A stretch of DNA of 38,260 nucleotides from a virus. The translations under genes were made by a program, and so were the position numbers. Of the stretch, positions 8,165 through 37,127 are shown one piece after another (the first letter of the stretch is position 1; each line of letters begins with the position of its first letter). The stretch is from the IMG/VR virus record IMGVR_UViG_3300043331_000655, positions 1 through 38,260 of that record. One strand, given 5' to 3'. The notes below the pieces were generated by a model, which saw nothing but the letters and a program-made list of their open reading frames with translations, did no database searches and was not told the origin of the DNA.

Positions 8165-8203
8165 CCCGCCCTTCCGCCGACTGATTAACTAGACACACAA
8201 CAA

Positions 8204-8261: not shown

Positions 8262-8266
8262 GCTTC

Positions 8267-20334: not shown

Positions 20335-21804
20335 ATGAAGCGGCTGCTACTGCTTCTCTTCGCATTGGCCGGTATCGCTCTCGCGCAGCCGGCCTTTACC
20401 TCTTCGAACGCCACCAAGCTCAAGGGAAAGCCGATGATCGGCACACCCGTCGACGGCGAGTCGTGGTGTCTCGACGCGGCCAACAACCGCTACATCCCGT
20501 GCTCGGGAGGAGGAGGAGGCGGCGGCGTCACCGACGCGCAACTGCAGGCGAATGCGCGCCTGTATTGCCCCGATTCCGGCGCGAACGATACCTATAGCTG
20601 CACCACTTCACCCGCGATCACGGCGCTCACCACCGGCATGGCGGTTTACGTAAAGCTAAACACCGCCAATACCGGAGCGGCCACCGTCGACGTCGATGCG
20701 GGCGGCGCGCTCGCCGCGAAAGCCATCAAGCTCATCGACGGCGCCACCGACCCGGACGATGGACTGCTGGCCGCGGGCGCAACCTACCAGCTCATCTACG
20801 ACGGTTCGGTGTTCCGCGTGAACGCCCACCTCGACACCGACAGCGAGAATGCAACCAGCTTTGACAGCATCCCTCTCTCGGGAACGCCGACCGATGGACA
20901 GACCTGGTGTCTGGCTACGGGCGGGGCCTCGTATGAACCCTGCACGCCTCCGACAGTCGATCTGACCAGCGCGCAGCTTCAGGCGAATTCGAGATTGTAT
21001 TGCGCCGATGCGGGCGCAAGCGATGCCTATAGCTGCACGACCACTCCAACCATCGCCGCATTGACAACCGGCATGGCGGTTTACGTAAAAGTAAACACGA
21101 CCAACACGGGCGCGGCGACCGTCGACATCGACGGCGGCGGCGCACTCGCGGCGAAAGCGATCAAGAAGCAGGACGGCTCGACCGACCCTGCAGACGGCGA
21201 TCTGATCGCGGGCAACACCTACCTGCTGATCTACGACGGCGCCGCGTTCCGCCTGAACACGGTTCGCACGATGCTGCAATACGTCGGCTACACGCCCGGA
21301 GTCTGCCAGAACACCACCGCAAGCCTCGGGTTTTCGCTGCCGGCGTCGAATCCGGCAGTAGCCGCTTGTGTAACCGGCGACAATTTGCAATTCGGCGTGG
21401 CGCAGTTTGCGGACGGCGGAAGCGCATTAAGCGTGCAGGGCAACTTTTACCTGCCTGCCGACTGGATCACGGGCCTGGTGCTGGTAGGCAAGTGGCGCAC
21501 CTCGGAGACATCCGGCAGTGTCGTGTGGCAGGTGCAGACGGCGTGCGTAGCCGATGGAGAGACGGCCGGCAATGGAGGAACGGGCGGCCCTTCGTGGAAC
21601 ACGGCCTCGACCGCCACCGACGCGGCCAAAGGCACGGCAAACCAGTTGAACGATTTCATCGTTTCGAGCGTAACCGTCACCGGCTGCGCGGCTGGCGAGC
21701 AACTCTATTTCAAGTTTCTGCGCGATCCGGACCACGCATCGGACAGTCTCGCCGCGACCGCGGAGCTGGTGAGCCTCACCTTCGCCTACCGGCGCACGAT
21801 TTAA
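20335..21804 (+). CDS. Tail-fibre-like protein with Sec signal peptide, two repeated units
   Basis: A 489-residue protein from ATG 20335, nine bases after GAGGGGA. Residues 1-17 (MKRLLLLLFALAGIALA) form a complete signal peptide with an A-L-A cleavage site before Gln18. Two repeated units follow: a Cys motif (GTPVDGESWCLDAANNRYIP-C, then GTPTDGQTWCLA) and a beta domain (ALTTGMAVYVKLNTANTGAA, TVDVDAGGALAAKAIK) at about 66-164 and 208-309. This beta domain is frequent in phage fibres. Residues about 320-489 form a separate C-terminal beta domain. Paired cysteines and export signal suggest an extracytoplasmic protein, which is odd for a virion part. Confidence 0.75.
   Translation: MKRLLLLLFALAGIALAQPAFTSSNATKLKGKPMIGTPVDGESWCLDAANNRYIPCSGGGGGGGVTDAQLQANARLYCPDSGANDTYSCTTSPAITALTTGMAVYVKLNTANTGAATVDVDAGGALAAKAIKLIDGATDPDDGLLAAGATYQLIYDGSVFRVNAHLDTDSENATSFDSIPLSGTPTDGQTWCLATGGASYEPCTPPTVDLTSAQLQANSRLYCADAGASDAYSCTTTPTIAALTTGMAVYVKVNTTNTGAATVDIDGGGALAAKAIKKQDGSTDPADGDLIAGNTYLLIYDGAAFRLNTVRTMLQYVGYTPGVCQNTTASLGFSLPASNPAVAACVTGDNLQFGVAQFADGGSALSVQGNFYLPADWITGLVLVGKWRTSETSGSVVWQVQTACVADGETAGNGGTGGPSWNTASTATDAAKGTANQLNDFIVSSVTVTGCAAGEQLYFKFLRDPDHASDSLAATAELVSLTFAYRRTI
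20401..20944. repeat. Fibre module repeat, copy 1
   Basis: About 540 bases that match 23811-24357 closely at the DNA level, including the identical 38-base stretch starting GCGAACGATACCTATAGCTG. A more diverged third copy occupies about 20881-21265. The copies are in the same orientation. Confidence 0.85.
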
Positions 21805-21808
21805 CCAC

Positions 21809-22048
21809 ATGGCAGATTTCCGCAATTTCGACATCAACTACCTGGGCACCGCGGGGCGCAACGTGCATCAGTTTGCCCTGAGCGCAACGGTCCACGATTC
21901 GCAGTCGGGCGAGCAGCTCGCCGACGTGACGGGCGCGAACCGGGAAGTGTTCGTCTTCAACACGACGGTTTCTCTCGACTCCACGCAGCGCAGGGAGCTG
22001 GTCGAGGCGATCGCAACCTACCTCCTCTACAAAAAGGCAGGAATGTAA
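21809..22048 (+). CDS. Small hypothetical tail-region protein
   Basis: A 79-residue protein from ATG 21809, four bases after the previous stop. It reads MADFRNFDINYLGTAGRNVH, then a strand-rich centre and a C-terminal helix (STQRRELVEAIATYLLYKKA). No signal peptide or motif is seen. It lies between two large surface-type genes and its stop is directly adjacent to the next GTG, so it is co-translated with them. It may be a connector or chaperone. Confidence 0.55.
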   Translation: MADFRNFDINYLGTAGRNVHQFALSATVHDSQSGEQLADVTGANREVFVFNTTVSLDSTQRRELVEAIATYLLYKKAGM

Positions 22049-23461
22049 GTGGCAGACTATTACGTCCGAAAAACCGGATCGGACAGCAACGGCGGAACCT
22101 CGCCCGCCGATGCATGGCTGACCGTTACGAAGGCACTGACAACGATCTCGGGCGGCGGTCATAACGTGTACGTCGGCGCGGGGACCTACCGCGAGACTGT
22201 GACGCCGAATTTCACGGCAACGTCGAACATTAACATCATTGGCGACGTAACCGGACAGTACACGGGAGATTCCGGCAGGGTCATCATCACCGGATTCACG
22301 ACCGATGACAAGACCGCGCCGAGCGCAACGGCAACGCTAACTTTGACCAGTCGCCGTTATCTGACCTGGAAGAACTTTCTAATCGTTGGCTCGCAAACGG
22401 CGGCTCTGTTGGCGACAATTCGAGACTGCACATTCCAGGACTGCTGTTTCCTTCCGGGGAACCATGTGAATAACGTGGCTATTGTGAATCTAACGGGAAC
22501 GGTTGATGTGGACGCCGCGGTGCTCTTTGAGCGGTGCGTCTTCTTCAATCCGGTTGCCAGTACCGTTGTAAACACACTTCCGACCTCGACAACAGCGGAT
22601 TACAACGCCGGCATCAGTTACAAAAACTGCCTGTTCCTGGGTGCGCAGCTCAACGTCGGCGGCTCCGGGGCAAACTCATTCAAGGGCGGCGGGGTAGCCG
22701 CGTGGAATTGCACCTTTTTTGGAGCACTCCCGGTAAGCGTTCCCGGCTCGACGATCTCAACTTCAATCCCCTGCACGATTTACAACTCCGTCGTCTTGGC
22801 AAGCAGCACGGCCCTTTCTGCTGGCACCTCGGGACAGTTGATCGAAGATTACAACGTCTTGCACGCGCCAACGGCGAGGACCAACGTAACGGCAGGCAGC
22901 AACAGCATCTCCAGCCGCAACTACGCACTGATGTTTTCGCTTTGCGACTGGCTGTGGAAAATGCAGCCGCGGCCGTTCCTGATGCCGATGGACGGCTCGC
23001 CGTTCCTCGCGTTCGGCGCGCAGGCAAGTGGTCCCACGGAGGACATTCTAGGTGCAAGCCGTCCCTCGGGTGGAGCTTCAACCAGCTATGCGGTAGGCGC
23101 ATTCGAGCGCGGCAAGATCGCGACCCGGGAAACATCCACCGTCTACACAGGCGGCGGCTCGGCGTACAAACTCACCGGACCCGGCTATCACGATTTCACG
23201 CTCGGGGTGGATGCGGCGAGCACCACCGTATCGGTTCGGGCGCGCTACGACACAAACCACGGCACGACGAACAAGCCGCAGATTGCGGTGCTGAACGGCG
23301 GCGGGTGCGGCGTGTCCGATGCGACAGCCACGATGACGGATGCCGCCGATACCTGGGAGGAGCTGCAACTGAACTTCACTCCGACCTCTAAAGGCGTTGT
23401 GACCATCCGGCTCATCAGCCGATCTGCGGCCGGCGACGGCATCGCTCTATTCGACGCATAA
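22049..23461 (+). CDS. Right-handed beta-helix tail-spike-like protein
   Basis: A 470-residue protein from GTG 22049, with AGGCAGGA upstream. It opens with YYVRKTGSDSNGGTSPADAW and LTVTKALTTISGGGHNVYVG, the common entry to pectate-lyase-like right-handed beta helices. Repeating strands with stacked Cys and Asn follow (IRDCTFQDCCFLPGNHVNNV, FERCVFFNP, YKNCLFLGA, WNCTFFGA). Residues about 340-470 form a C-terminal beta sandwich resembling a carbohydrate-binding module. There is no signal peptide. It probably binds or degrades cell-surface polysaccharide. Confidence 0.7.
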   Translation: MADYYVRKTGSDSNGGTSPADAWLTVTKALTTISGGGHNVYVGAGTYRETVTPNFTATSNINIIGDVTGQYTGDSGRVIITGFTTDDKTAPSATATLTLTSRRYLTWKNFLIVGSQTAALLATIRDCTFQDCCFLPGNHVNNVAIVNLTGTVDVDAAVLFERCVFFNPVASTVVNTLPTSTTADYNAGISYKNCLFLGAQLNVGGSGANSFKGGGVAAWNCTFFGALPVSVPGSTISTSIPCTIYNSVVLASSTALSAGTSGQLIEDYNVLHAPTARTNVTAGSNSISSRNYALMFSLCDWLWKMQPRPFLMPMDGSPFLAFGAQASGPTEDILGASRPSGGASTSYAVGAFERGKIATRETSTVYTGGGSAYKLTGPGYHDFTLGVDAASTTVSVRARYDTNHGTTNKPQIAVLNGGGCGVSDATATMTDAADTWEELQLNFTPTSKGVVTIRLISRSAAGDGIALFDA

Positions 23462-23513
23462 CACTATGGCACAGCTTCCTACGAAAGTGACCCGCGAATA
23501 GAGGGTATCCCCA

Positions 23514-23696
23514 ATGGCGATGACATTCGATTACTGGCGGAACGGAGAGCCGGCCTCGGTCGCGCAGCCGACCGCGCTCGCCGACTACTGGCGCAACGGA
23601 GAACCGGGCGAATTCTTCTACACGGCGGGCGGCGGCGGCGCGCCCGATGATCCCGATCCGGTTCCCGCCATCATCAATATTCCGCAGTTGTTTTAA
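23514..23696 (+). CDS. Small protein with two YWRNGEP repeats
   Basis: A 60-residue protein from ATG 23514, eight bases after GAGGG. FDYWRNGEPASV is repeated as ADYWRNGEPGEFF, followed by a Gly-rich then Pro/Asp-rich tail. Short proteins with an F/Y-x-Y-W-x-x-G-x-P motif are seen among phage tail genes. An 11-codon mini-frame (MAQLPTKVTRE) at 23466-23501 precedes it and may be a leader or a relic. Confidence 0.5.
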   Translation: MAMTFDYWRNGEPASVAQPTALADYWRNGEPGEFFYTAGGGGAPDDPDPVPAIINIPQLF

Positions 23697-23742
23697 GCTC
23701 GCCGCGTTTCAGCCTTCGGCTTCGAGCGGGCGATTCCCCGGC

Positions 23743-25575
23743 GTGGTAAAACGCCTTCTTTTTCTAATCCTGCTTGCGTCGGCAAGCCTCCCGGCACAGA
23801 TTGCGCTGCAATCGACCAACGCGAACAAGTTCAAGGGCAAGCCGCTGATCGGCACACCCGTCGACGGCGAGACATGGTGTCTCGATTCGGCGAATAACCG
23901 CTACATCCCGTGCTCGACGGGCGCGGGCGCTTCCGGCGTAACCGACGCGCAGTTGCAGGCCAATGCCCGCCTGTACTGTCCTGACTCCGGGGCGAACGAT
24001 ACCTATAGCTGCACCACTTCACCCGCGATTACGGCGCTCACCACCGGCATGGCGGTTTACCTGAAGGTCAACACCACCAATACGGGCGCGGCCACCGTCG
24101 ATATCGACAACGGCGGCGCGCTGGCCGCGAAAGCCATCAAACTCGCCGATGGAACGACAGACCCATCGGACGGGCTGTTCGTCGCGGGGAACACCTACCA
24201 GCTCCTCTATGACGGCAGCGTGTTCCGCACGGCCGCACACGCCGATACCGACAGCGAGAATGCGACCAGCTTCGATGGAATTCCGCTCTCGGGAACGCCC
24301 ACGGAGGGACAGACCTGGTGTCTGGCTGCAGGCGGCACTGAGTACGAGCCCTGCACCGGGGGCGCAGGTCTGACGTTCCAGCAGGAAGGCGTCACCGAGG
24401 GATCGCCGCGGGCCACGCTCGATGCTCTCGACGGCTACGGCATCACGCGCATCTTCAACGACACCGGCTCCAAGATGACCGATCAGATCGCGGTGAACGA
24501 TGCCGTGATTCTGTCGCGCACACAGGCGCAGTCGGGCGCCGATCACGTTGTCGCGGTGACCAGCTCGGGCACCGACACCTACACCGGCACGCTCTCGCCC
24601 GCGCTTGCCGCCTATCCGACAACCAGCGGAATGCGCATCGTGTTCACGCCGGACACGACGGCTTCCGGGGCAAGCTCTCTCAATCTGCACAGCCTCGGGG
24701 CACTGGGGATTTACGAATCCGATGGAACGACGAACGCGACTCTCACCGAAGATCAGACCTACGAGCTGGTGTTTGAAGCCACCGGCACGGATCGCTGGAA
24801 GAAGTTTGCGGGCACCAGCGCGGGCAGCACATCGACCACGGACGCGTTCGCATCGCTGCCCACCTGCGACGCATCGGCGGATGGCGCGGTGTACCACTTC
24901 ACGAATTCCCCCTACCTCGACACGGCCACCTGCGACGGCAGCTCGTGGACGTATCTTTATCGCGGGATGCAGGCGTACCCGGCGACGCTCGCCGATTTCA
25001 CGGCCTTCGGCACAGGCGGTTCGGCAACCCAAGCCAACGGCTATATCCGCATGGTGGGCGCAACCGGCGCAGGAAACTCAATGGTGGGCTACCAGAAGGC
25101 CGTACCCGGCGCGTCGTACTCGATCATCGCGACATTCGAGACTCTGAGCGTGAATCACGCCTTACTTAACTGCGGAGTGGGTTGGAAGGTCACCGCAGAC
25201 GGCAAGACGATGATGGCCTATCAAGCCTTTGTCTCTTACACGGGCACATCCGGCATCTCCGTCCAAAGCCTGTACGCGGGAGCGGACTGGGCCGTCGTCA
25301 GCGCGTCGAACGCAACCGCGATCGGCACCAATCCCCGCCTTGTCGGGCCTGTCACCGTGAAGCTCGACGATAACAGCACCAACCGGCAGATCAGCTTCAG
25401 CCTGGACAGGGGCGTCAATTGGACGCTCTGGCATTCAGAGACAAGCGGAGCGGCGGGCAATTTCTCGGGTGGGGCGCCGACGCAGGTTTTCTTCGGCTGC
25501 AACACGCGCACATCGGCGAACGTGGCGCCCATGATGGCGCTCATTTCCTGGGAACAAGGGGCGACGACGCAGTAG
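23743..25575 (+). CDS. Tail-fibre-like protein with Sec signal peptide
   Basis: A 610-residue protein. GTG 23743 is chosen because it gives a complete signal peptide (MVKRLLFLILLASASLPA, cleavage before Gln19); the longer frame would bury it. It shares with the 20335 gene the Cys motif (GTPVDGETWCLDSANNRYIP-C) and the beta domain at about 66-165, then the half unit GTPTEGQTWCLAAGG. A second, diverged beta domain spans about 268-355. Residues about 410-610 look like a concanavalin/LamG-type sandwich. It is probably an exported adhesin or carbohydrate-binding fibre. No good ribosome-binding site is seen. Confidence 0.7.
   Translation: MVKRLLFLILLASASLPAQIALQSTNANKFKGKPLIGTPVDGETWCLDSANNRYIPCSTGAGASGVTDAQLQANARLYCPDSGANDTYSCTTSPAITALTTGMAVYLKVNTTNTGAATVDIDNGGALAAKAIKLADGTTDPSDGLFVAGNTYQLLYDGSVFRTAAHADTDSENATSFDGIPLSGTPTEGQTWCLAAGGTEYEPCTGGAGLTFQQEGVTEGSPRATLDALDGYGITRIFNDTGSKMTDQIAVNDAVILSRTQAQSGADHVVAVTSSGTDTYTGTLSPALAAYPTTSGMRIVFTPDTTASGASSLNLHSLGALGIYESDGTTNATLTEDQTYELVFEATGTDRWKKFAGTSAGSTSTTDAFASLPTCDASADGAVYHFTNSPYLDTATCDGSSWTYLYRGMQAYPATLADFTAFGTGGSATQANGYIRMVGATGAGNSMVGYQKAVPGASYSIIATFETLSVNHALLNCGVGWKVTADGKTMMAYQAFVSYTGTSGISVQSLYAGADWAVVSASNATAIGTNPRLVGPVTVKLDDNSTNRQISFSLDRGVNWTLWHSETSGAAGNFSGGAPTQVFFGCNTRTSANVAPMMALISWEQGATTQ
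23811..24357. repeat. Fibre module repeat, copy 2
   Basis: Matches 20401-20944 in the same orientation, beginning at the AACAAGTTCAAGGGCAAGCC region and ending at the codons for EYEPCT. High nucleotide likeness at silent positions points to a recent duplication or to ongoing gene conversion. Confidence 0.85.
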
Positions 25576-25576
25576 C

Positions 25577-28500
25577 ATGAAGCGCGCTCTTTTCCTTCTC
25601 GCACTGGTTCCCTCGCTGTGGGCGGGGACATCTCTCACCCTGCCTGCCGAAAAGACAGGAACGGCTTCGTTGAGCTGCCAGGCCGGAGAAACCTGCTCTG
25701 GGACTTCCTTCACGAACGCCGCGTCGTTCCGCATCGAGTTCAGGGCGAAGAACCTCACCCGCGCGACATCCGGCAATCCATATGCCTACGTGGTGCAGGT
25801 TCCAAACGTAATGCACTTCGTCTTGCAGCGGCCTGATTACGGCACCAACGCCGGGTGCCTCACTGGACCAGGCTCCGCGATGCGCGAAGACAACATTCCC
25901 GAAACAATGGACATCGAAGTCAGGATGCAGCGCGTCGTGACCTCGGCAGGGTCTGGTTACTACACCTGCGAGATATGGAACATCGAGCCCGCTGACGGGC
26001 CGGCGTTACTCACCTCCCTGCGGGTGCCAACGAGCGGCACGACAACGATGTCAGCGGTACCGAGCGGAACGGTAACGATCGGGCCGAACTGCACCCCCGG
26101 CGCTGTATGCGGTGGGGCGGCTGGCTACGGCGTCGACCTCGCATATCTCAGGATTTTCTCGACCGCGGTGGATATGGGAAGCATCCCGCCCGCCGCTTCG
26201 GTAAAGGGCGATCTCTTCAATTACGAGTTCACCGGGTCAACGACGGCAGAGCTTGGCGCTGACGATCACGTTGGCCCCGGAGCCACCGCGCGCAACATAA
26301 CCTGGGATGCCGATGTCACCGGCTGCGGCGGCGGCACCGCGCCCTGCACGGTTACCACGCCCACCTACGGGCCTGTGTGCGATGCGGGCGACACCCAGGT
26401 CTTTCGTACCGGCACGAGGATTACAGCGGACGCCTCCGACACCTACGCGCGCAACCTCGAAGACAGCGGCGCCATTACCTACGCCTGGAACCTCGATGAA
26501 TTCCCTGCAGGCTCGAATCCGCTATTCGTCGACAACGACACCGACGATGTGACGGTCAGTGTCGAAAACACCGTGTTCGGCCAGTACGTGCTGCGCGCGA
26601 AAGTCACCGACAGCGCCAGCCTGGAGTCGACCTCCTGCACGGTGACGCATGGCGCAGTGGCCTATAACAGCGACGGCATCGTGATCTATCCTCCGGACAC
26701 GCCCGATGCAGTCGAGGCGATCGTCGGGCCTCTGATCGCGCCGGGAATGAGCCCTACTTCCTGGATGGATACAGCAGCCACCAGTTCGGCCGATGAATTC
26801 GATGCCATCTGGGGCACGGTGACCAATGCCGACCGCAAGGGGTACTGGGACTACGACGAGGAAAACTGGGGCGGCGGCACGGTCACGATCGCGCAGAGCG
26901 ACACCACCGTCTCGCCGAATCCCGGCACCAAGATGTATTGCGATAGCGGTACCTGCGACTTTCAGGGCACGGTGTGCGCCACCGGCAGCACCTCGCCCAT
27001 CAGCGGCGCAACCGTGATGGTTTCCTATCCGGCTTATCAGGGCGGCGGCGTATCGGCTGTGCAAGGCGGCTATGCCTCGGGCGTGGTTTCAACCAACGGC
27101 GAGAGCGGCTGGCTTTATGCGAGCGTCGCAAGCTGCCAGTCCGATACCGAGATCACCTTGAGCACGGCCTTGAATGTGGGCGCTCCCAAGGGCACCAGCT
27201 TCACCGGGCGCAACTGGAGCTACTTCACGGGAACGCCGAGCCCGATTCTCGCCTGGAGCGCTGCGGGTCCCTCTGCGGTTGATTTCTACGACACCGGCCT
27301 GGCTTATTACGCGATGTACTACCGCACCGGGCTGACCAAGTATCTGACCCGCGCCCGCTACATCGCAGACCGGAACTACACCAACCCGGTATCGATCAAC
27401 AAGGGCCTGCCGTTCCGCCACAACCTGAACGGCACCTATCACCACACCAACGACGGGACGCGGCAGGAATGGCGGGACGTCAACCTGGGCTCCATCGTGA
27501 TCCGCGCGCTAGAGACGGAACTCGGCGACGCGGGCCGCCCGGAATTCTGGACCGGAATCCGGTACGTCTGCGACTACATCGACGAGTCGAACAGCGCGGA
27601 CGGAGCCGGGAACCGCGAGGCGGGCTATGCGCTGGCGTTCCTGTCGATGTGCGCGATGGGAGATCCCGACAACACGCAGCGGGAAGCGTGGCTGACAGTT
27701 CTCGATACCGCGATCGACGGTTTCATGAACACACGCTGCGACGGCTCCACATCGCCGTACCGGGTGTGCCACGGCCGGAACACCAATATCTGGGTCGACC
27801 TGACCTGGGGACAGTTCCCTCCAGCTTTGGGAGGCGTGCGATCCGGCATCTATTACGCGCTCGGACCCACACACGCTACGTACTCGAAATCCAACTGGAA
27901 GGTGCGGCTTACCAACGGGAGCTATACCGCCGAGATGATCAACGGGCCGCTTACGTTCCCCGCCGCGCACCCGCACCACGCCAACTTCCCGATCCAGTTC
28001 GGCCTGGATGGAAAGCTCGGGCCGCTCTGTGTAGGAACCGGCACCGCGCCGAATTTCACCTGCGGCACGACACCGCCGACAACCGCCTATACGACGGGCA
28101 TGGTGATCTCGTTCGTGCCTCCGGTCGCCATCAACAGCACTTCGGGGTTGAACATCAACGTCGACGGCCTGGGCTCGAAGCAGGTGCTGGCGCTCAACGA
28201 CACCACTTTTGGTTTTACAGACTACAGGCTGACGGCGAACGAGCCTGTTGCGCTTTACTACAACGGCACGCGGTGGCAGGTAGTGCCCGTCACGGCCGCT
28301 TTCTATCCCAAGCTGACGCCGGACATGGACGCATCGCTTTCCGACAGCGACGACTTCGGGCGCGCGTTCTACTGGCCGGAATACGTCGATTCGACGCACT
28401 TCAACATCAAGGCGTTCTCGCTGTCGACCGACAGGGACAGCGTGCCCTATGAACCCTGGACCGGCGCGACCGGCGATTACGAATTTCAGCTTGACGGTAC

Positions 28501-29341
28501 TGGGGCCACGGGATCGCGCGTGCAGCCGTTCATGGTGGGGATCATCATGCGCGCGCTGTTCATGGCGCACCGGGCCACCGTGCTCGACGGTTCGCCCAAC
28601 GCCGACGCTGCAACCATGTTGAGCGATGCCGCGCAATGGATCATCGACTATGCCTACGATCCGTTGACGGGCGGGCTGTACTTTGCGCGCCACATGGCCG
28701 GATGCGAACTCGAGAGCGATTACGGCGTGATGCCTGCAACCATTGCAGCGATTCCGGGCGGCTGCCTGTCGGACCTGGGCGGCGCTCGCGGCATGATCGC
28801 CGAAATCACCGGAGCTATGTCGGCCGCCTACCTGCTGGAGACAGACTCGACGCGCAAGGCGGCGATCCGAACCGCCATGCTGCGGTACTGGGGGCACATG
28901 TGGGGGAAATCCGGCTACACCTGCACGGGCGAGTACGCGGCCTACTGCGACGGGGACTACCTCACGCTGGTTGAAGAAACCTACACGTCTGGCGAAAACC
29001 AATACAGAGTGGACAAATACCTCGGTTTCGCGCTCGGCTTCGGCGGCATCTTTTCCTGGCCTTCGGCAGACGCGCACACCGAATATCCGCGCGAGGCGCC
29101 GACGCGAACCGTCAGCATCAGTTTCCGGCTCGGTGACGTAACGGACGCGGACGAAGTGAGGATCACGCTCAAGGATCAGCACGGCACGGAACTCACGCCC
29201 GTCGACTGTGACGCGAGCCCGTGCAGTGTCACGATCCCCGACTATCAGGCGGGGAAATACCAGTTCAAGCTCGCCTACCGGAAGGCAGGCGCAACAGTGG
29301 CAGAGGGCCGCTACCAGCCGCTCGCCAACGTCGACGAATAA
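25577..29341 (+). CDS. Giant secreted multidomain depolymerase-like protein
   Basis: A 1254-residue protein from ATG 25577. Residues 1-16 (MKRALFLLALVPSLWA) are a Sec signal peptide. Residues about 30-220 resemble a LamG-type lectin domain, and about 262-360 a PKD/Ig-like domain (DTYARNLEDSGAITYAWNLD). From about 560 to 1140 alternating helices such as DFYDTGLAYYAMYYRTGLTK and LGSIVIRALETE suggest an (alpha/alpha) toroid of polysaccharide lyases or hydrolases. The fibre-type beta domain (INSTSGLNINVDGLGSKQVL) is inserted at about 815-905. A C-terminal Ig-like domain closes the protein. The role may be degradation of surface polysaccharide. Catalytic residues are not identified. The 3' end overlaps a leftward gene. 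Confidence 0.7.
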   Translation: MKRALFLLALVPSLWAGTSLTLPAEKTGTASLSCQAGETCSGTSFTNAASFRIEFRAKNLTRATSGNPYAYVVQVPNVMHFVLQRPDYGTNAGCLTGPGSAMREDNIPETMDIEVRMQRVVTSAGSGYYTCEIWNIEPADGPALLTSLRVPTSGTTTMSAVPSGTVTIGPNCTPGAVCGGAAGYGVDLAYLRIFSTAVDMGSIPPAASVKGDLFNYEFTGSTTAELGADDHVGPGATARNITWDADVTGCGGGTAPCTVTTPTYGPVCDAGDTQVFRTGTRITADASDTYARNLEDSGAITYAWNLDEFPAGSNPLFVDNDTDDVTVSVENTVFGQYVLRAKVTDSASLESTSCTVTHGAVAYNSDGIVIYPPDTPDAVEAIVGPLIAPGMSPTSWMDTAATSSADEFDAIWGTVTNADRKGYWDYDEENWGGGTVTIAQSDTTVSPNPGTKMYCDSGTCDFQGTVCATGSTSPISGATVMVSYPAYQGGGVSAVQGGYASGVVSTNGESGWLYASVASCQSDTEITLSTALNVGAPKGTSFTGRNWSYFTGTPSPILAWSAAGPSAVDFYDTGLAYYAMYYRTGLTKYLTRARYIADRNYTNPVSINKGLPFRHNLNGTYHHTNDGTRQEWRDVNLGSIVIRALETELGDAGRPEFWTGIRYVCDYIDESNSADGAGNREAGYALAFLSMCAMGDPDNTQREAWLTVLDTAIDGFMNTRCDGSTSPYRVCHGRNTNIWVDLTWGQFPPALGGVRSGIYYALGPTHATYSKSNWKVRLTNGSYTAEMINGPLTFPAAHPHHANFPIQFGLDGKLGPLCVGTGTAPNFTCGTTPPTTAYTTGMVISFVPPVAINSTSGLNINVDGLGSKQVLALNDTTFGFTDYRLTANEPVALYYNGTRWQVVPVTAAFYPKLTPDMDASLSDSDDFGRAFYWPEYVDSTHFNIKAFSLSTDRDSVPYEPWTGATGDYEFQLDGTGATGSRVQPFMVGIIMRALFMAHRATVLDGSPNADAATMLSDAAQWIIDYAYDPLTGGLYFARHMAGCELESDYGVMPATIAAIPGGCLSDLGGARGMIAEITGAMSAAYLLETDSTRKAAIRTAMLRYWGHMWGKSGYTCTGEYAAYCDGDYLTLVEETYTSGENQYRVDKYLGFALGFGGIFSWPSADAHTEYPREAPTRTVSISFRLGDVTDADEVRITLKDQHGTELTPVDCDASPCSVTIPDYQAGKYQFKLAYRKAGATVAEGRYQPLANVDE

Positions 29342-29999
29342 CGAACAGGCCGCAGGCGAGAGCGGCGGGCAGAAGCGTCGCCGGTTCCGGCGTGTCGACA
29401 AATTCGGGGCGCTCGGAGCCGACCAGGAAGGGGCGGATGGGAATGATGTTGCCGCTGTCGAACGTCCCGTCGTCGCCGGGAACCCACATGATCGCGTTCA
29501 CGCGCATCGTGAAGCTCGACCGCGGATAGTTGCCCATGTTGCCGCCTGCCCAGGCTCCGATGCGAATGGTGGGATTCAGGCTGCAGCAGGGGATTACGCC
29601 CTGCACCCAGTTCTGCCCGTTGAAACCGAACACCCATCCCTCGACCTCCGATTCATAGGTGACGGTCACAAGCCGCGTGTAAGCGCCGTCCGAATTAACC
29701 TGCGGCTGCTCATGCGTGTCGATCGCGAAGCTGAGATCCGACATTCCGAGCTGATAATTGCGCGGGTCTTGGGGCGCGGGGGGATACGCTTCGGCGACCG
29801 CGCTGATTTCGAGCGTGTAGCCGTTGTCAAGATACCGATATGCCGGGATCGGCGTAACCGAGCACATGGTGTCTTCGATGAGCGATCCGTCCGGGTAATG
29901 GAACCCCTGGTAGCAATCCTTGCGGGTGACGGTGAAAGGATCTGCGAACGACAAAACAGCCGTCGCAAAGAAAAACATTGCTAGTTTGAAAATAGCCAT
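29265..29999 (-). CDS. Secreted PEP-CTERM protein, probable moron gene
   Basis: A 244-residue protein from ATG 29997-29999, nine bases after GGAGG. Residues 1-19 (MAIFKLAMFFFATAVLSFA) are a signal peptide. The body has four conserved-looking Cys (C28, C45 and the pair IPCCS) and beta-rich sequence. Residues 203-224 carry the sorting signal: PEPATLLPAALACGLFVI followed by RRRWR, i.e. PEP, a transmembrane stretch and Arg cluster. This directs proteins to exosortase in Gram-negative hosts. The last about 25 codons overlap the end of the 25577 gene on the other strand. Opposite orientation and own promoter suggest expression during lysogeny. The function is unknown. Confidence 0.8.
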   Translation of the reverse strand: MAIFKLAMFFFATAVLSFADPFTVTRKDCYQGFHYPDGSLIEDTMCSVTPIPAYRYLDNGYTLEISAVAEAYPPAPQDPRNYQLGMSDLSFAIDTHEQPQVNSDGAYTRLVTVTYESEVEGWVFGFNGQNWVQGVIPCCSLNPTIRIGAWAGGNMGNYPRSSFTMRVNAIMWVPGDDGTFDSGNIIPIRPFLVGSERPEFVDTPEPATLLPAALACGLFVIRRRWRAAGSGPLPLLRLPSGRRA

Positions 30000-30093
30000 C
30001 GAGTGCGGCCTCCGATGCCGCGCTTTGCATGGTTGGGGCGGCACCTCCGAGCGGCGCGTTATCCGCGCGCCAGCCGCCCTCAGACCGATGCGC

Positions 30094-30122
30094 AATTTAG
30101 CACGCTTCCAGCGCATTCACAA
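30094..30122 (-). promoter_or_regulatory. Promoter for the PEP-CTERM gene
   Basis: On the minus strand TTGTGA (30117-30122) and TAAATT (30094-30099) are exactly 17 bases apart. It would give a leader of about 85 bases before the ATG at 29999. It makes the gene independent of the rightward late transcript. Confidence 0.5.
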
Positions 30123-30166
30123 GAACCAGTACTAACGGTCTATGCCCGTTTTGGTGATTGCTTGGC

Positions 30167-31039
30167 GTGACCTACGGTACGCTCCGATTCCGCATCGCCA
30201 AACTTCTGCCGGGGCTCGATCACGACCTCATTGACGGCTGGATCAGCGACCGCTACACCCAAATTCTCGACGAGATTCCCTGGCGGCGGCGCGAGCTGCG
30301 CACCATCGTGCAGACCGTGGCGCCGTATGAAACCGGCTCCATTGCGCTTACCGAGGGCTCCACTGCGGTAACGGGCACCGGAACGACCTTTACCTCCACC
30401 CACACGGGCGCGCGGCTGTACGTCGCTACACGCAACGAAGTCTATAGCTTCACCTATGTCAGCGGGACCACGGGCACGCTCGACCGCGCCTTTGAAGGAA
30501 CCACCGGCTCGTATAGCTACAAGCTATACCGGAGCGTCATCGCGCTGCCGGCTGCCGTGCGGCTGCTGCAGGCCGTTACCGATCTGCAGAACGGGCCGCT
30601 CGGCCAGATCACGCGCCGTGAGGCGAACGAAGAGGTAGGCGTCACCTTCGGGATGCCGGTCGAATACCGGCTGACCTACGACGACGCATCCTCGCCGCCG
30701 AATGCCCAGATCGAAGTATTCCCTGCTCCGTCTGAAGTGACCTCACTCGAAATCGAGTACGTCGCCGACGAGAGCACCTTCGCTACCGGGACCACATCGA
30801 ACACGCTGCTGCCCTGGGTGCGGCCTGCCTGCCTGATCGAAGGCGTGCAGGCGTCGGGCGAAGCGCACAAGGAAAACTGGACCGCTGCCGACTATCACGA
30901 GGGCCGCTTCGCGAAGCTGCTTCAGCAGATGATCCGCACGGCCAGCTACGGCAAGTGCGAGCCGGTCCGAATGCGCGCCGAATGGGAGCGCACGACCGGC
31001 GACCTCCGCACCATCCTCCGCAGATTGCAAATGCCATGA
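30167..31039 (+). CDS. Neck/adaptor-type protein, putative
   Basis: A 290-residue protein from GTG 30167 (TTG 30158 also possible; no good ribosome-binding site). The N-terminus (FRIAKLLPGLDHDLIDGWIS, DRYTQILDEIPWRRRELRTI) and C-terminus (EGRFAKLLQQMIRTASYGKC) are helical, flanking a beta domain about 60-120 (TAVTGTGTTFTSTHTGARLY). A helical bundle with inserted beta structure, followed by similar genes, suggests a head-to-tail connector component. The ATG of the next gene overlaps its stop. Confidence 0.55.
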   Translation: MTYGTLRFRIAKLLPGLDHDLIDGWISDRYTQILDEIPWRRRELRTIVQTVAPYETGSIALTEGSTAVTGTGTTFTSTHTGARLYVATRNEVYSFTYVSGTTGTLDRAFEGTTGSYSYKLYRSVIALPAAVRLLQAVTDLQNGPLGQITRREANEEVGVTFGMPVEYRLTYDDASSPPNAQIEVFPAPSEVTSLEIEYVADESTFATGTTSNTLLPWVRPACLIEGVQASGEAHKENWTAADYHEGRFAKLLQQMIRTASYGKCEPVRMRAEWERTTGDLRTILRRLQMP

Positions 31040-33141
31040 AACGAATTCTTATTTCTTTTTTACTGCCGTGTTTTCTCGCGGCGCAGACCGCATCATTCCC
31101 CGGCGCTGTCGTCACCGATGCCGAGCTGCTGGTAGGGCGCGATCGCGCCGACTCGACGCTTACCGCTCAGATCGATGCTTCGACGCTCACCATCCCGGTT
31201 GCCTCGGGCACGCGCTTCGGGGCGAACATGCTGGTCACCATCGATAGCGAGCAGATCAAAATCTGCAGCGTGGCCTCGAACACGCTTACCGCCTGCAGCG
31301 GCGGGCGCGGCTTCAACGGAACCACGGCCGCCACTCATGCGAGTGATGCATCGGTTCGCGGGCAGATCGGCGGCTACTATCACAACGCGCTCTCGGAAGA
31401 GATGCAGGCAGTCCAGGCAGCGCTCGGGGCCAAGTTCCGCAATCTCGGCATCTGGGCCACGCAGTACGACTTCGCGGCGCAGGCTCCGGGCGGAACCCTC
31501 AGCGCAGGCGTGGGAGCTTCGGTAACGCTCACCCCCTGCCCCACCGGAGTGGCGGGCGCCAACACCAACCACTATCTGTATGTCTCGGGCGGCACCGGAA
31601 CCGCGGAGCCGGTTCTCATCACCGGAGGCACCTGTACCTCGGATGCAACCACGGGAACGGTTCAATTCACGCCCGCCAACGCGCATTCGGGCGCATGGAC
31701 GGTTGCGAGCGCGACGGCGGGCATTCAGGAAGCGTTTTATTCCAGCTCCGATCCGATGCAGGTGATTTTGGACGAAGGCACCATCACCATGCGCGGCAAG
31801 TTGAGCTTCCCGCGCGATTCGATTTCACTTGTCGGGCAGGGCTTCAGCGCGAGCAAGCTCACCTGGCCGAGCGACCTCGCGGACGATCTGATTTCCGTGG
31901 ATGGCGGGGGCGGGGGTTCCTACCGGCGCGGCGTGCATCTGGAAAAATTCGCGATCTACTCAACGGTGCAGCAGACGGCGGGCGCGGCCATTCATTTGTA
32001 TTCAACAACGTGGTCCGTGCTGCGCGATTTGAAGATCCAGGGCGACGATTCAGTGTCGACGCTGTATCACGGCGTGTGGTTCGACGAGGTAGACAACGTT
32101 CACATGGATCACGTCGAGGCGGTAGCCGACAACGACGCGGTGCGAGTGAACGGCACCGTGGGCGCGGGCGCGAAAGCAGGCCTCTACATCCATAATTCGC
32201 GGCTGCTGAATTCCACTGTCGGCATTCGTGTGGGCGGCGGATTCGGCGGGCTGTATGTGACGCAGGCCGACATCATCGCCAACGGCACGGGCCTGTTGCT
32301 CGACCAGACGCTCGCGGCGGAATCGAACCGGGAAATCTTTCTCGACGGAACGACCACCATCGACTCCTCGACCTCGATCGGCATCGACATCAACGAAGGC
32401 TTCAACAACGGCTACCTGGGTTTGAGCGGCACCTGGGTTTCGGCCAACGTGACCGGAATGCGGGTACGCACGGGCACGGCCGCAAGCGCAAGTATCAACA
32501 TCGCGGGCGGAACCTTTTTCAACAACTCGACGGTTGGAATCCTGAACGAATCGACCGTCGCTTTGTGGAATGTGACCGGGACGGCGTTCCGCTCCAACGC
32601 CACCGCTATCAATCAGAGCGTTACCAGCGGGTTCTATGTGCGAGGGCTGCGGTTCGACTCCAACACCACCGATATCACCGGCACGGTCTACAGCGTCGAA
32701 AACGCCAACGTTTCCTGGCCGCACACAACCGAGCGGCAGTTGTTCCTCGAGATGGGCAACGTCGCGGGCACGGACACCACAGGCGGCGAAACGCTGTGGA
32801 TCGGCGCGGGAGAAAACGGAATCGCGACGGCGGAAGGCGAGATTTCAGAAAGCGGCACGATCAAGGGCGCGGCTGCCGTGGGTTTCCGCGGCTTTGCCGA
32901 AGGCGGCCAGTACCAGGGCGCAATGGAATTCTGGACGAAGCAGTCCGGCACGGCCTACCGGCGCTTCATGGTCCCGTCAGACGGCGGTATCCGCGTCGAG
33001 ACAGCCGGCAAGCCGTCCTGCGATGCGGATCATGGCGGCAACATTCACTACGTCGCGGGCGGCGCGGGAGTCGCCGACACCTTCGAGGCCTGCCGCAAGG
33101 ACGCATCCGATAACTACGCCTGGGTGTCCATTCTCCCGTGA
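31036..33141 (+). CDS. Secreted beta-helix tail-spike-like protein
   Basis: A 701-residue protein from ATG 31036, overlapping the previous stop. Residues 1-16 (MKRILISFLLPCFLAA) form a signal peptide with cleavage before Gln17. Residues about 20-130 are a phage-fibre N-domain (TLTIPVASGTRFGANMLVTI, CSGGRGFNGTTAATHASDAS, YYHNALSEEMQAVQAALG). Residues about 225-600 are a right-handed beta helix with repeats such as VHMDHVEAVADNDAVRVNGT and LYIHNSRLLNSTVGIRVGGG. A C-terminal domain (about 610-701) closes it. It resembles capsule-degrading spikes, but with an export signal. Catalytic acids cannot be assigned by eye. Confidence 0.72.
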   Translation: MKRILISFLLPCFLAAQTASFPGAVVTDAELLVGRDRADSTLTAQIDASTLTIPVASGTRFGANMLVTIDSEQIKICSVASNTLTACSGGRGFNGTTAATHASDASVRGQIGGYYHNALSEEMQAVQAALGAKFRNLGIWATQYDFAAQAPGGTLSAGVGASVTLTPCPTGVAGANTNHYLYVSGGTGTAEPVLITGGTCTSDATTGTVQFTPANAHSGAWTVASATAGIQEAFYSSSDPMQVILDEGTITMRGKLSFPRDSISLVGQGFSASKLTWPSDLADDLISVDGGGGGSYRRGVHLEKFAIYSTVQQTAGAAIHLYSTTWSVLRDLKIQGDDSVSTLYHGVWFDEVDNVHMDHVEAVADNDAVRVNGTVGAGAKAGLYIHNSRLLNSTVGIRVGGGFGGLYVTQADIIANGTGLLLDQTLAAESNREIFLDGTTTIDSSTSIGIDINEGFNNGYLGLSGTWVSANVTGMRVRTGTAASASINIAGGTFFNNSTVGILNESTVALWNVTGTAFRSNATAINQSVTSGFYVRGLRFDSNTTDITGTVYSVENANVSWPHTTERQLFLEMGNVAGTDTTGGETLWIGAGENGIATAEGEISESGTIKGAAAVGFRGFAEGGQYQGAMEFWTKQSGTAYRRFMVPSDGGIRVETAGKPSCDADHGGNIHYVAGGAGVADTFEACRKDASDNYAWVSILP

Positions 33142-33169: not shown

Positions 33170-33958
33170 GTGACCCGCTCGGAACTCACACAGCGGACGC
33201 TGCGCCGTCTCGCGGAATCGACCTCGGAGCCTGTCGCGGTGACAGAGGCAGAGGTTATCCGCGCGCTCGATGAAGGGCAGCGCCTGTTTGCGGCGATCTC
33301 GCTTTCGATCGAACGCACCGACCGCTTCGACCTCACCGCTAACCAGGTCTGGTATCAGGCTTCGGTCCAGCTCCCCGACTTCTTTGTGCCGCTACGCTGC
33401 GCGCAACGGCCGCTCGCGACCGGAGTGAGCGAATTCGACGTGCCGACCTTCGATGAAGTCACCTTCGACGAAGCGACGGCGAATGCCGGCGCCGTCACGC
33501 GGGTGAAACCCGCACGGCTCGCCGAACTCGATGCGCTCGACCGGGAGTGGCAGAACGCGCGATCGAACACCACGCTGCGCTATGGCGTCGTCGGCTTTGA
33601 ATTGCTGTTTGCGTATCCGGCGCCCTCGGCTGCGGGCGTGTCGCTTGAGATGACCTATGCGGCGACACCGCGCGATTTGACGAGCGGTTCGCAATCGCCC
33701 GACATTCCCTCGCAGTACCACCAGTTTCTGATCGACTACGCCCTGCCCACGCTGCGCCTCAACGACGGCGGTGCGGAGCTGGAGCGCTCGGTGAAGGGCC
33801 TGACCCGTTTCCTGGATGCGGCGGAACAGTGCGCCGACACGGTGCGGGCACGCTCAAAGACGCTCCAGTACGACCGCGAGCCTTTCGAGCTGCGGGCCTT
33901 TGACCGCTCGCGGCTGATCGGGGAAGTGGTGAAGAAACGCAAGAGGATCGCTGCATGA
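33170..33958 (+). CDS. Putative neck or adaptor protein
   Basis: A 262-residue protein from GTG 33170, nine bases after GGAG. It begins with helical TRSELTQRTLRRLAESTSEP and VTEAEVIRALDEGQRLFAAI, followed by a beta-rich middle and a C-terminal helix bundle (YHQFLIDYALPTLRLNDGGA, FLDAAEQCADTVRARSKTLQ). This helix-beta-helix order is like the genes before and after it and like connector proteins of podoviruses. No signature residues are seen. Confidence 0.5.
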   Translation: MTRSELTQRTLRRLAESTSEPVAVTEAEVIRALDEGQRLFAAISLSIERTDRFDLTANQVWYQASVQLPDFFVPLRCAQRPLATGVSEFDVPTFDEVTFDEATANAGAVTRVKPARLAELDALDREWQNARSNTTLRYGVVGFELLFAYPAPSAAGVSLEMTYAATPRDLTSGSQSPDIPSQYHQFLIDYALPTLRLNDGGAELERSVKGLTRFLDAAEQCADTVRARSKTLQYDREPFELRAFDRSRLIGEVVKKRKRIAA

Positions 33959-34590
33959 TTTCCTATCCCGACATCCTTGAGGAATTGCTGCCCGCGCTGA
34001 ATGCGTCGAGCTACACCGATCTGGTGTTCTGGACGCAAGAAGAACTGCTCGAATTCGCGGAAGAAGCGGCGCGGCAGCTCGGCGCGCTCGGGGTCAACGT
34101 TTCGCGCGACGACCTGGCTGTCTATGGCGGAAGCTCCAGCTTCCAGATGCCGGCGCGCACTCTCTCGGTGATCCATGTCTCGCACGAGGGCCGCAGCTTG
34201 CGCGGCATCAACGTCCAGGAACTCGAAGCGCGCGACTCTGACTGGCGCACGGCTGCCGATGACGAGCCGACACACTTTGCATCCGATGTGGCAGGCGTCG
34301 AGATCCTCACGCTCTACCCGATGCCCAACGACGACGGCACGGGCGGCGTGGTGCGGCATCACTGGCAAGGGCCGGTATGGTCACCGCTCGCTCCCGATTC
34401 CCCGCTGGCACTGATTAGCGACACCGCTCCGGGACCGGGAATCTTCGGCGACTACATCCGTTACCGGGTGATCGAGAAAGCGCGCGAGCGCGACGGCGAC
34501 GGCATGATGCTTGACGCGGCGATCCATGCCGGCGAACGGTGCAAACTCTACGCGGCAATCTTCGGAAGGTACTGGGAAGCAGCAGAGTAA
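33955..34590 (+). CDS. Putative head-tail adaptor protein
   Basis: A 211-residue protein from ATG 33955 (ATGA overlap). It starts ISYPDILEELLPALNASSYT, DLVFWTQEELLEFAEEAARQ, has a beta middle (SSFQMPARTLSVIHVSHEGR) and a terminal helix pair (DYIRYRVIEKARERDGDGMM, ERCKLYAAIFGRYW). The tail motif with L.DAA..AGERCKLYA..FGRYWE resembles C-terminal helices of phage adaptor proteins that sit under the portal. Coupling to the stabilisation gene supports a neck role. Confidence 0.55.
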   Translation: MISYPDILEELLPALNASSYTDLVFWTQEELLEFAEEAARQLGALGVNVSRDDLAVYGGSSSFQMPARTLSVIHVSHEGRSLRGINVQELEARDSDWRTAADDEPTHFASDVAGVEILTLYPMPNDDGTGGVVRHHWQGPVWSPLAPDSPLALISDTAPGPGIFGDYIRYRVIEKARERDGDGMMLDAAIHAGERCKLYAAIFGRYWEAAE

Positions 34591-36767
34591 TGGCGTACAG
34601 GAAACAAGTCGAGATCGTACAACCGGGATCGCTGAATCTCGCTCTGCCCACCGATGGCGTGGGGAGCGATTCGATCGCGATGCACAACTTCCGCACCGAC
34701 CGGCACGGCTGCCTGCGCTCGCGTCAGTCGATGACATCGAGCGTTGCGCCCTCCGGCCTGATTCACACGATTTACCGGCACGGTCAGAATCGCATCTACG
34801 GGGCAGACGACGAACTCTACAACGGCACCACGCAGATCGTGCCAACATCGGGCGCCTACACCTTCAACACGAGCGACCTGAAGCCGTTCGGCCTGGCCTC
34901 GTTTGCAGGCTTCCTGTGGATCATGACGCCGGATCTCCAGCAGTGCTGGAACGGCGGCGGCACTTCGAATACCTGGGCTGTAGCGGCGGTTTCGACCGCG
35001 CCCTCGCAATCGCTGCAGGCGGGCGGCTCGCTGGTCGACGGGCAGACGTATGAGTATTACGTCACCTATGAAACCGCGCTCGGCGAGGAAACCAATCCCA
35101 CCAATCCCGTCACTGCGTCGCCATCCGGTTCCAATCTCACGGTTCGCATCACGCCCACCGCGCACACCGATGCGCGCGTGACCCTGTGGAATGTCTACCG
35201 CGTCGGCAACACGCTGCCCGAAGCCTATCGCGTGGCGCAGTTGCCGGTTGCCACCACATCGTTCGACGATACCGGCGCGGGCGATTACTCCGACCTCGAA
35301 GTGACGCGCCGGGGCATCGTGCTCGAAACCGATCACGACGCGCCACCCTCTGCCGCAGGCCTGGAGGGTCCCTACTATCAGCGGCTGGTTGCCTACTGCA
35401 CCAGCGCGCACAAAAACCGGGTGTTTTACACCAAGCCCAATAAGCCCTGGCATTTTCCCTCGACCTACTGGTTCGACGTGGGCGACGAGAGCGATGAAAT
35501 TATCCGGATCGTCCAGCATCCGTCACATCTGCGGATTTACAAAAAGCGCTCGATCTGGCGGCTGTACGGCGATTGCGACTCGGGCCGCCTGGAGCGGACC
35601 AATGCCTCGCTCGGTCTGATCGGCGCGGCGGCGATTGCTACGCGGGGCGGGCTCGACTACTTCCAGGGGCAGGAGGGCATCTACGTCAACAACGGCGATG
35701 TCAACCGCTCGATGAGCGACAAGCTCGAAACCATCTGGCGCGACGGCATCACCTTCGCCTCGGGCGCCTATCCGAACATCGCCATTCAAAGCAGTGAAGC
35801 GGTGCGGCAGAAACATTCCCTCGCGATCAAAAACAACCGGCTGTACTACTCCTACATCGATGAATCGGGCGCGGCGGCCTATCAGACGCTCGTGTGCGAT
35901 CTCGATACCGGCAACTGGTGCTCGCAAACCACCGACGCGGCGGGACTGGGCGGATACACGGCGCTGTTCGACGAAGGGCAGTACGGCGAGCTTCTGGGCG
36001 CGGCCAACGGCGCAATCTGGGCGCTCGAACAAATCTCGACCGCGAATGCGATCCCGCTCACCTGGACCTCGGCCTATCGCGATCAGGGATTCCGGGACCG
36101 CAAGAAAACCTACTCCGATCTGGTCATCGAACACTCGACCAAGCGCAGCGCGGCCGATCAGAACTGCACGGTAAAGCTGAAGCTCGACTCGGGCGACACC
36201 TCCGACCTGGCGGTAGGCTCGATCCCTGTCGCCACGGTTGCGGCGGGCGCGGCGCGCACCGTGTCCACATTCCCGCTCGGGACGGACAAGCAGGGCGTGG
36301 AAGCCCGCAACGCGGCCATTCATATCGAGTCGACCTCGGGCATCAATTACGAGACAGTCATTTATAGCGCGGCGCTCCACTATTACCTGGAGCCGCGCGA
36401 TGCGACCACCTGGGATTCGGGGATCATCGATCTGAACGACCCGCGCGTGAAGGGTCTGGAGCTTCTCTGGCTCGACATCGCAAGCACGATCGCGCTCACC
36501 TACACCATCTGGACGGAACTGCCGGGCGGCGCGATGGCAATACGGCAGACAGGGGATTTCACACCGGGCACAAGGCGGCCGTTCACGATTGAGACTCCTG
36601 GCGTCGAGGGGCGACTACTGAGAATCGTCATTCAGCGCAAGACCTCGGTGACTTCGGGCACGTTCCGGCTGTATGGGGCGCGGCTGCGCTACAAGGCCAT
36701 CGGGATTTACCTCGAAGGCGCGCGCTCGAACGTGTGGCAGACGCCGGAACTTGCTCCCGGCGTGTAA
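34590..36767 (+). CDS. P22 gp10-like phage stabilisation or tail hub protein, putative
   Basis: A 725-residue protein from ATG 34590 (TAATG overlap). It has repeated beta segments consistent with a propeller: IHTIYRHGQNRIYGADDELY, YYQRLVAYCTSAHKNRVFYT, PNKPWHFPSTYWFDVGDESD and IRIVQHPSHLRIYKKRSIWR. Residues about 145-235 form a fibronectin-III-like insertion (QTYEYYVTYETALGEETNPT). The 'gadget PWHFP...F.VGD...I..I...S.L.I.K..SIW.L.G' pattern is what I expect from gp10-type DNA stabilisation proteins of podoviruses, which plug the neck. The C-terminal 100 residues form a beta module repeated in the next two genes. Confidence 0.6.
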   Translation: MAYRKQVEIVQPGSLNLALPTDGVGSDSIAMHNFRTDRHGCLRSRQSMTSSVAPSGLIHTIYRHGQNRIYGADDELYNGTTQIVPTSGAYTFNTSDLKPFGLASFAGFLWIMTPDLQQCWNGGGTSNTWAVAAVSTAPSQSLQAGGSLVDGQTYEYYVTYETALGEETNPTNPVTASPSGSNLTVRITPTAHTDARVTLWNVYRVGNTLPEAYRVAQLPVATTSFDDTGAGDYSDLEVTRRGIVLETDHDAPPSAAGLEGPYYQRLVAYCTSAHKNRVFYTKPNKPWHFPSTYWFDVGDESDEIIRIVQHPSHLRIYKKRSIWRLYGDCDSGRLERTNASLGLIGAAAIATRGGLDYFQGQEGIYVNNGDVNRSMSDKLETIWRDGITFASGAYPNIAIQSSEAVRQKHSLAIKNNRLYYSYIDESGAAAYQTLVCDLDTGNWCSQTTDAAGLGGYTALFDEGQYGELLGAANGAIWALEQISTANAIPLTWTSAYRDQGFRDRKKTYSDLVIEHSTKRSAADQNCTVKLKLDSGDTSDLAVGSIPVATVAAGAARTVSTFPLGTDKQGVEARNAAIHIESTSGINYETVIYSAALHYYLEPRDATTWDSGIIDLNDPRVKGLELLWLDIASTIALTYTIWTELPGGAMAIRQTGDFTPGTRRPFTIETPGVEGRLLRIVIQRKTSVTSGTFRLYGARLRYKAIGIYLEGARSNVWQTPELAPGV

Positions 36768-37126: not shown

Positions 37127-37127
37127 C

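Follow-up and report, generated by a model that had tools for sequence, protein, structure and literature searches.

The 38,260 bases of the IMG/VR virus record IMGVR_UViG_3300043331_000655, hereafter the window, belong to a podovirus, very probably of Bryobacterales (Acidobacteriota). All of its genes were translated and scored, and four of them, starting at positions 20335, 23743, 25577 and 31036, encode fibre-type, spike-type or large proteins that begin with Sec signal peptides. These leaders are conserved across a phage clade defined by its major capsid protein (MCP), they coincide with a cysteine pair in a tail-fibre domain, and two of the four genes form a pair that recurs in exopolysaccharide loci of host chromosomes. 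The four products are probably Sec-exported, disulphide-bonded fibres and putative enzymes directed at polysaccharide, a reading drawn from the sequences and their relatives.

Leaders of the four window proteins

An in-house heuristic, not SignalP, served to score signal peptides; it had been checked on seven known E. coli signal peptides, of which it missed PhoA, and on four non-secreted controls. By this test, each of the four proteins combines a basic n-region, a hydrophobic h-region and small residues at -3/-1, with no membrane helix after them. The leaders, followed here by the residues after the predicted cleavage site, are MKRLLLLLFALAGIALA before QPA in 20335, MVKRLLFLILLASASLPA before QIA in 23743, MKRALFLLALVPSLWA before GTS in 25577 and MKRILISFLLPCFLAA before QTA in 31036. 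Three of the four starts are fixed because neighbouring gene ends overlap or adjoin them: 31036 starts 3 bases before the end of the upstream gene (an ATGA overlap), 25577 immediately follows the stop of its upstream gene, and 20335 begins five bases downstream of such a stop. Only 23743 could begin further upstream. From codon 25 on, 23743 is 81% identical to 20335 in DNA; the leader region is far more diverged, yet both are still leaders, which is the pattern expected if selection acts on the physical character of the segment and not on its letters.

The initial annotation had claimed these four signal peptides, many paired cysteines in the mature parts and a selective absence of leaders from neighbouring virion-type genes, and all of this was borne out. 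The leaders are present at the proposed starts, and the same test flags 8 of 947 outgroup genes. Cysteines number 12 in 20335, 10 in 23743, 26 in 25577 and 7 in 31036, and many of those in 20335 and 23743 fall in C-x10-C pairs. Leaders are absent from 19361, 19973, 22049, 30158 (whose start had been placed at 30167) and 33170, as well as from 33955, 34590, the MCP, the portal and the terminase. The list of leaders was incomplete, since the minus-strand gene 29999..29265 had been overlooked: it carries a fifth leader (MAIFKLAMFFFATAVLSFA before DPF) and a PEP-CTERM-like C-terminus, with a weak match to PF07589 (E=0.031, below the cut-off). The scope, confined to four genes of the window, also proved too narrow, as the leaders are a clade-wide and partly host-shared property.

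The mature parts of the four proteins reach a Kyte-Doolittle-19 maximum of at most 1.5 and contain no transmembrane-like segment. A membrane-anchor reading was rejected because the mature parts lack a hydrophobic segment, and a lipoprotein reading because the predicted sites lack a lipobox.

The spike encoded at 31036 has leader-bearing orthologues in two Bryobacterales contigs (L226 and L227; loci are cited by L numbers), in the same order of 30158-like gene, spike and 33170-like gene. The three mature N-termini align (QTASFPGAV, QNTAKFPGAV and QNTAKFPTRL), as do three cysteines, and related leader-bearing spikes occur in L101 and L104.

Cysteine pair, capsid clade and sister lineage

A tail-fibre neck domain is present twice in 20335 and also in 23743 and 25577. 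It resembles tail fibre gp47 of phage Pa193 (PDB 9b45), both by hidden Markov model (E 8.7e-16) and by Foldseek (E=1.4e-5, template-modelling score 0.72). The C-terminal domain of 20335 is shared with leaderless phage fibres (L083-L097). In leader-bearing proteins the neck domain contains two cysteines about ten residues apart; where phage fibres have this domain but no leader, the two positions are taken by Ala, Val, Ile or other residues. With Bryobacterales genomes included, the pair is present in 48 of 48 leader-bearing neck proteins and absent from 16 leaderless ones. Four cases are discordant: in three (L251, L266 and L287) a leader missed by the heuristic is visible by eye, and in the fourth (L289) the N-terminus is incomplete. 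Leaderless fibres from phages of the same host order (L293 and L307) have the neck domain without the pair.

In the predicted structure of the neck domain, with a predicted local distance difference test score (pLDDT) of 86.7, the adjacent strands 6-10 and 16-19 bear Cys8 and Cys19, so a cross-strand disulphide between them is plausible. Since the pair tracks the leader, it provides independent evidence that neck proteins reach an oxidising compartment. Export and oxidation as the common denominator of these proteins are well supported by inference.

The distribution of leaders was assessed in 80 + 80 IMG/VR loci with MCP relatives, scoring plus-strand genes downstream of the MCP. In the MCP clade to which the window belongs, 81 of 207 genes bear a leader, spread over 25 of 31 loci; outside it the figures are 8 of 947 genes (0.8%) and 8 of 100 loci. 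On an MCP tree of 34 representatives, the label "at least one leader gene" requires 4 changes (shuffled mean 11, with 0 of 500 shuffles as low) and "at least two leader genes" requires 2; the genes are not independent, the tree is a quick one, and leader-bearing loci were chosen first as representatives, so the p-value for the contrast in gene counts is indicative at most. Leaders are a property of the MCP clade. Loss of the leader in homologues had been named by the initial annotation as a finding that should overturn it; the leader is retained in the syntenic orthologues of 31036, in the neck-fibre family and in the 35 homologues of 25577, nearly all of which have it. Separately, L180:5146-9587 and L181:5128-8268 each contain three consecutive leader-bearing fibre-type genes and the C-x10-C neck domain, in phages whose examined stretch lacks the capsid marker of the clade.

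A sister lineage of low G+C content (L007, L008, L033, L043, L109, L111-L116, L118, L133, L135, L144 and L151 are examples) bears leaders on further tail proteins. Its gene order runs from the capsid protein (leaderless) through a small protein (leader), a Wzy_C O-antigen-ligase-like protein, a second small protein (leader), an SU10 adaptor (leaderless), a nozzle (leader) and a tail fibre (leader) to internal-type proteins (leaderless). Profile searches found leaders on 19/19 first and 12/12 second small proteins, 9/9 fibreA and 4/4 fibreB proteins, and on 0/161 capsid, 0/39 portal and 0/15 adaptor proteins. All 12 nozzles of a first census have a leader, one of them just below threshold, and 16 further nozzle loci, partly overlapping the first set, agree save for one or two unreadable N-termini. 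The leaders precede normal tail-fibre N-terminal domains, which are leaderless in MW202524 and MW202785, two complete phages outside the clade whose nozzle and fibre homologues have no leaders.

The identity of the sister nozzle rests on PHROG matches and on its position after the SU10-type adaptor. In addition, the 13 best PDB matches of its structural model, among whose top hits are VP1, Pa223, SU10, P22 gp10, Sf6 and T7 gp12, are all podovirus nozzle or portal-tail structures. The model has a pLDDT of only 55.5; at this low confidence, the leader-bearing protein may be taken as a tail nozzle with a P22 gp10/SU10-type fold.

The Wzy_C protein (L008:3731-4912, with equivalents in L111 and L113-L116), an O-antigen ligase/polymerase-like membrane protein encoded between capsid and tail genes, is likely to modify the host surface late. 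Its place is occupied in the Manatee Spring podovirus L177 (MW202524.1, positions 3082-11913) by a series of genes for glycosyltransferases and methyltransferases, lying between capsid and nozzle. L118:14145-18164 encodes a leader-bearing late protein of 1,340 residues with a GH123-type N-terminal domain match above the cut-off.

Some searches returned no matches. Direct BLAST in annotated phages with 20335, 25577 and 31036 was empty, as were scans of viral contigs with 20335 or 25577 as single proteins and an initial genome-contig scan with the paralogues 20335 and 23743. PDB sequence searches with 25577, 31036, the low-G+C nozzle profile (A4) and fibreB (A3) gave no meaningful match.

The fibre and large-protein pair, its host and the gene map

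The adjacent genes 23743 and 25577 encode a neck fibre and a large protein. From N- to C-terminus, the latter comprises an unassigned N-terminal region, a PKD-like region, an alpha/alpha GH127-like region, a neck fibre domain with the cysteine pair and an Ig-like end. In Bryobacterales chromosomes, a neck fibre gene lies directly upstream of a gene for a protein of about 900-1,300 residues, both leader-bearing, among genes for glycosyltransferases, Wzy_C polymerase/ligase, flippases, Asn-synthase-type enzymes and a hexapeptide transferase. The host genomes yielded 29 open reading frame matches to the large family, each with a neck gene close by; this set is biased, because stretches were taken around neck genes, and some of them overlap or share contigs. 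The host large protein and 25577 are homologous along the length of the latter, with blastp E-values down to 5e-18 and a profile E of 2.4e-25, and about 45 of the 257 Bryobacterales genomes have a strong match to the large protein (E<1e-30).

The large protein, again with a leader, is encoded on seven further viral contigs, and in five of these a neck fibre could be recognised upstream. Where the neighbours could be typed, they are tape-measure, tail or DNA-ejection-type genes, or terminase and major-head genes, and unrelated phages bear the pair at the tail-fibre locus. Phage and chromosomal copies are intermixed on a tree of 35 large-protein sequences, which requires at least 5 changes between the two settings and places the window copy on a long branch. 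Given this mixing, the pair has moved repeatedly between phages and host chromosomes, in one or both directions.

The window encodes a large terminase, a capsid protein, an SU10-type adaptor and a nozzle-type protein (Table 1). Relatives of its MCP at 49-58% identity occur in three metagenome-assembled genomes (MAGs) of Bryobacterales/Bryobacteraceae and in one labelled Streptosporangiaceae, and an MCP match is found in 16 of 257 Bryobacterales genomes, several on contigs of 74-100 kb. Because such close MCP relatives sit in genomes of this order, the host is very probably a member of Bryobacterales, an assignment with a single source, the MAG contigs. Binning errors are possible in MAGs, and the contig labelled Streptosporangiaceae (L173), with a capsid gene 58% identical to that of the window, is probably one.

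Table 1. Features of the window discussed in the text
Feature	Coordinates	Strand	Remarks
Major capsid protein	17578..18504	+	No signal peptide; marker that defines the clade; homologues in 27 phage records (many annotated as capsid) and in IMG/VR
Neck-domain tail-fibre-like protein, Sec signal peptide (20335-20385)	20335..21804	+	Two fibre domains, each with a C-x10-C pair
Beta-helix-like protein, no signal peptide	22049..23461	+	Stop codon immediately 5' of the GTG start
Paralogue of 20335, Sec signal peptide	23743..25575	+	GTG start; gene 1 of the fibre and large-protein pair
Large secreted-type protein, Sec signal peptide	25577..29341	+	Gene 2 of the pair
Protein with signal peptide and PEP-CTERM-like end	29999..29265	-	Host-type cargo gene
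Adaptor-like late gene, leaderless	30158..31039	+	11 matches among clade members; overlaps 31036
Beta-helix-like spike, Sec signal peptide	31036..33141	+	Syntenic leader-bearing orthologues at L226:6469 and L227:10295
SU10-type tail adaptor, leaderless	33170..33958	+	PF24175, E=1.7e-12
Nozzle-type virion protein, leaderless	34590..36767	+	phrog_511/3287; counterpart in the sister low-G+C lineage bears a leader

Several further observations concern the gene map. The leaderless beta-helix-like gene 22049-23461, for which family libraries gave no match, sits between two leader-bearing fibre genes. After 34590, nozzle-related domains occur as separate small genes (36788-37679), and nozzles of the Bryobacterales lineage (L098, L104 and L175) reach about 1,390 residues with repeated C-terminal domains. 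A small serine recombinase of the resolvase/invertase type is encoded at the left end (1357-1983), possibly serving integration or inversion, and an HNH-like endonuclease of zinc-finger type is encoded downstream of the capsid gene and ahead of the fibre region (18585-19268). The terminase genes L004:3133-5583 and L005:2681-5044 have an apparent intein-like insertion after the Walker motif, for example RCLRGDTKVWTSEGLQEISK.

Compartment of action and related systems

According to the favoured explanation, the four proteins would be synthesised late in infection as precursors for the Sec pathway, processed by signal peptidase I and folded with disulphides outside the cytoplasm. The products of 23743 and 25577, together with the duplicate 20335, would form a fibre-plus-large-enzyme module aimed at the exopolysaccharide of the Bryobacterales host, and 31036 would be an exported spike proper to the phage clade. 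This pool of exported proteins may strip or bind surface polysaccharide outside the cytoplasm and would leave the cell at lysis, remaining free or joining particles after the inner membrane has failed. Several points weigh against this explanation. The window nozzle (34590) and the beta-helix gene 22049 are leaderless, and one member of the clade, L107, bears no leader at all and is a clear exception. The relatives of 25577 are distant, at about 25-29% identity and along a long branch, so its function may have drifted; it also lacks a confident catalytic family, the GH127-like match being only weak (E=0.026 in a relative).

The initial annotation had proposed export, with the proteins acting either as secreted adhesins or polysaccharide-degrading enzymes or by addition to particles outside the cell. 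Selective export is supported by the conserved leaders, the link between cysteines and leaders and the homologues in exopolysaccharide loci; between a free module and virion attachment after export, free action seems slightly the likelier for the window proteins themselves. A virion-only reading fails on the leaderless window nozzle, and a host-cargo-only reading fails on the leader-bearing sister nozzle.

The possibility of a free secreted module stands at close to an even chance. Here an exported adhesin/depolymerase would act outside the virion, remodelling the exopolysaccharide of the infected cell or lysogen, and would either aid release and spread or exclude competitors. The same pair in host polysaccharide loci without phage genes is consistent with this, as are the interleaving of phage and chromosomal large proteins and the PEP-CTERM secreted-type cargo gene adjoining on the other strand. 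Chromosomal, siphophage and podophage copies also share the same N-terminal domain, so the module appears to have no tail-specific anchor and could act free. However, free action leaves the leaders on the sister nozzle and on canonical fibres unexplained, and elsewhere the pair occupies the tail-fibre locus, often as the sole fibre candidate.

Those sister leaders are hard to explain unless exported virion parts meet heads at lysis, and a division of virion assembly across the inner membrane is quite possible, if rather less than an even prospect. Heads with portal and adaptor would form in the cytoplasm, and exported fibres and spikes, with the sister nozzle too, would mature in the periplasm and dock on released heads at lysis. 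An essential part of the virion tube, the sister nozzle, carries the leader throughout the first census and in most of the further set, and leaders stand before normal tail-fibre N-terminal domains. Only external or distal parts bear them; the MCP, portal, adaptor and ejection-type proteins never do, and the late-operon genes are tightly packed. Such assembly is opposed by the leaderless window nozzle, by the N-terminal domain of the pair, which is common to chromosomal and siphophage copies and so unlike a tail-specific anchor, and by the need for filled heads to stay open or adaptor-plugged until lysis. The wider proposal, that a clade of tailed phages splits its assembly between cytoplasmic heads and a nozzle, fibres and spikes that are Sec-exported, oxidised in the periplasm and joined at lysis, is advanced only tentatively.

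That the leaders are unused for export, the hydrophobic N-termini serving packing, oligomerisation or membrane contact in the particle, is improbable. Export is deduced from sequence, but the basic n-region, the uncharged h-region and the AxA cleavage site before Q are kept despite divergence, the cysteine pair tracks the leader, and host-locus copies bear the same leaders. An artefact of wrong start codons, chance hydrophobic runs or misassembly is hardly credible: gene calling is uncertain in DNA of 62% G+C and the predictor is a heuristic, but most starts are fixed by gene ends, the leaders come from many independent contigs, and chance or wrong starts are ruled out by the conservation data together with the outgroup rate.

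The nearest described system, likened by description, appears to be the mosaic adhesive trimer (MAT) proteins of Bdellovibrio bacteriovorus, which are cell-encoded, resemble phage tail fibres and have signal peptides (PMC10769870). A conserved beta-rich domain of about 130 residues follows the signal peptide directly, and a C-terminal S74 peptidase/chaperone is present in 13 of 21 members and absent from 8 (PMC10769870). Window proteins share the arrangement of a signal peptide followed by a fibre-like protein. They differ in being phage-borne, whereas MATs are genes of a predatory bacterium that serve prey recognition; no nozzle, late-operon context or pair of fibre and large enzyme is reported for MATs in that source, and the window proteins have no S74 match in Pfam, unlike the 13 MATs.

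Other likenesses are to parts of phages. Pa193 gp47 shares the neck domain of 20335, 23743 and 25577, but its aligned segment lacks the cysteine pair; Pa193, a contractile-tailed phage, assembles its fibres in the cytoplasm. Podovirus nozzles (P22 gp10, SU10, Sf6 gp8 and T7 gp12) share the predicted fold of the sister protein and its position after an SU10-type adaptor, but the homologues checked outside the sister lineage (L177, L178 and the window) have no signal peptide. The combination of a beta-helix spike and carbohydrate-active-type fibres at the tail locus recalls podovirus virion depolymerases and tailspikes; the classical ones are assembled onto virions in the cytoplasm and are not known to have Sec leaders. 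Virion depolymerases are a known kind, and so are phage morons that bear Sec leaders. The morons are likewise phage-carried genes with Sec leaders that act outside the host cytoplasm, but they are usually single autonomous genes, whereas the leader genes of the window are several, lie within a late operon and abut or overlap structural genes.

The tails of tailed phages are taught as cytoplasmic assemblies, and the open-access full-text literature yielded no report of Sec leaders on their structural proteins, the nozzle included. Export tags on fibres and proteins of sugar-degrading type suggest that such parts are moved out of the cell interior ahead of lysis. Leaders on fibres, spikes and the sister nozzle would mean either an assembly divided between compartments or a secreted arm of fibres and enzymes beside the virion. 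The combination of a leader with the C-x10-C neck domain offers a sequence signature for spotting exported fibres. Furthermore, the fibre and putative large-enzyme module moves between phages and the exopolysaccharide loci of Bryobacterales, little-studied bacteria of the soil.

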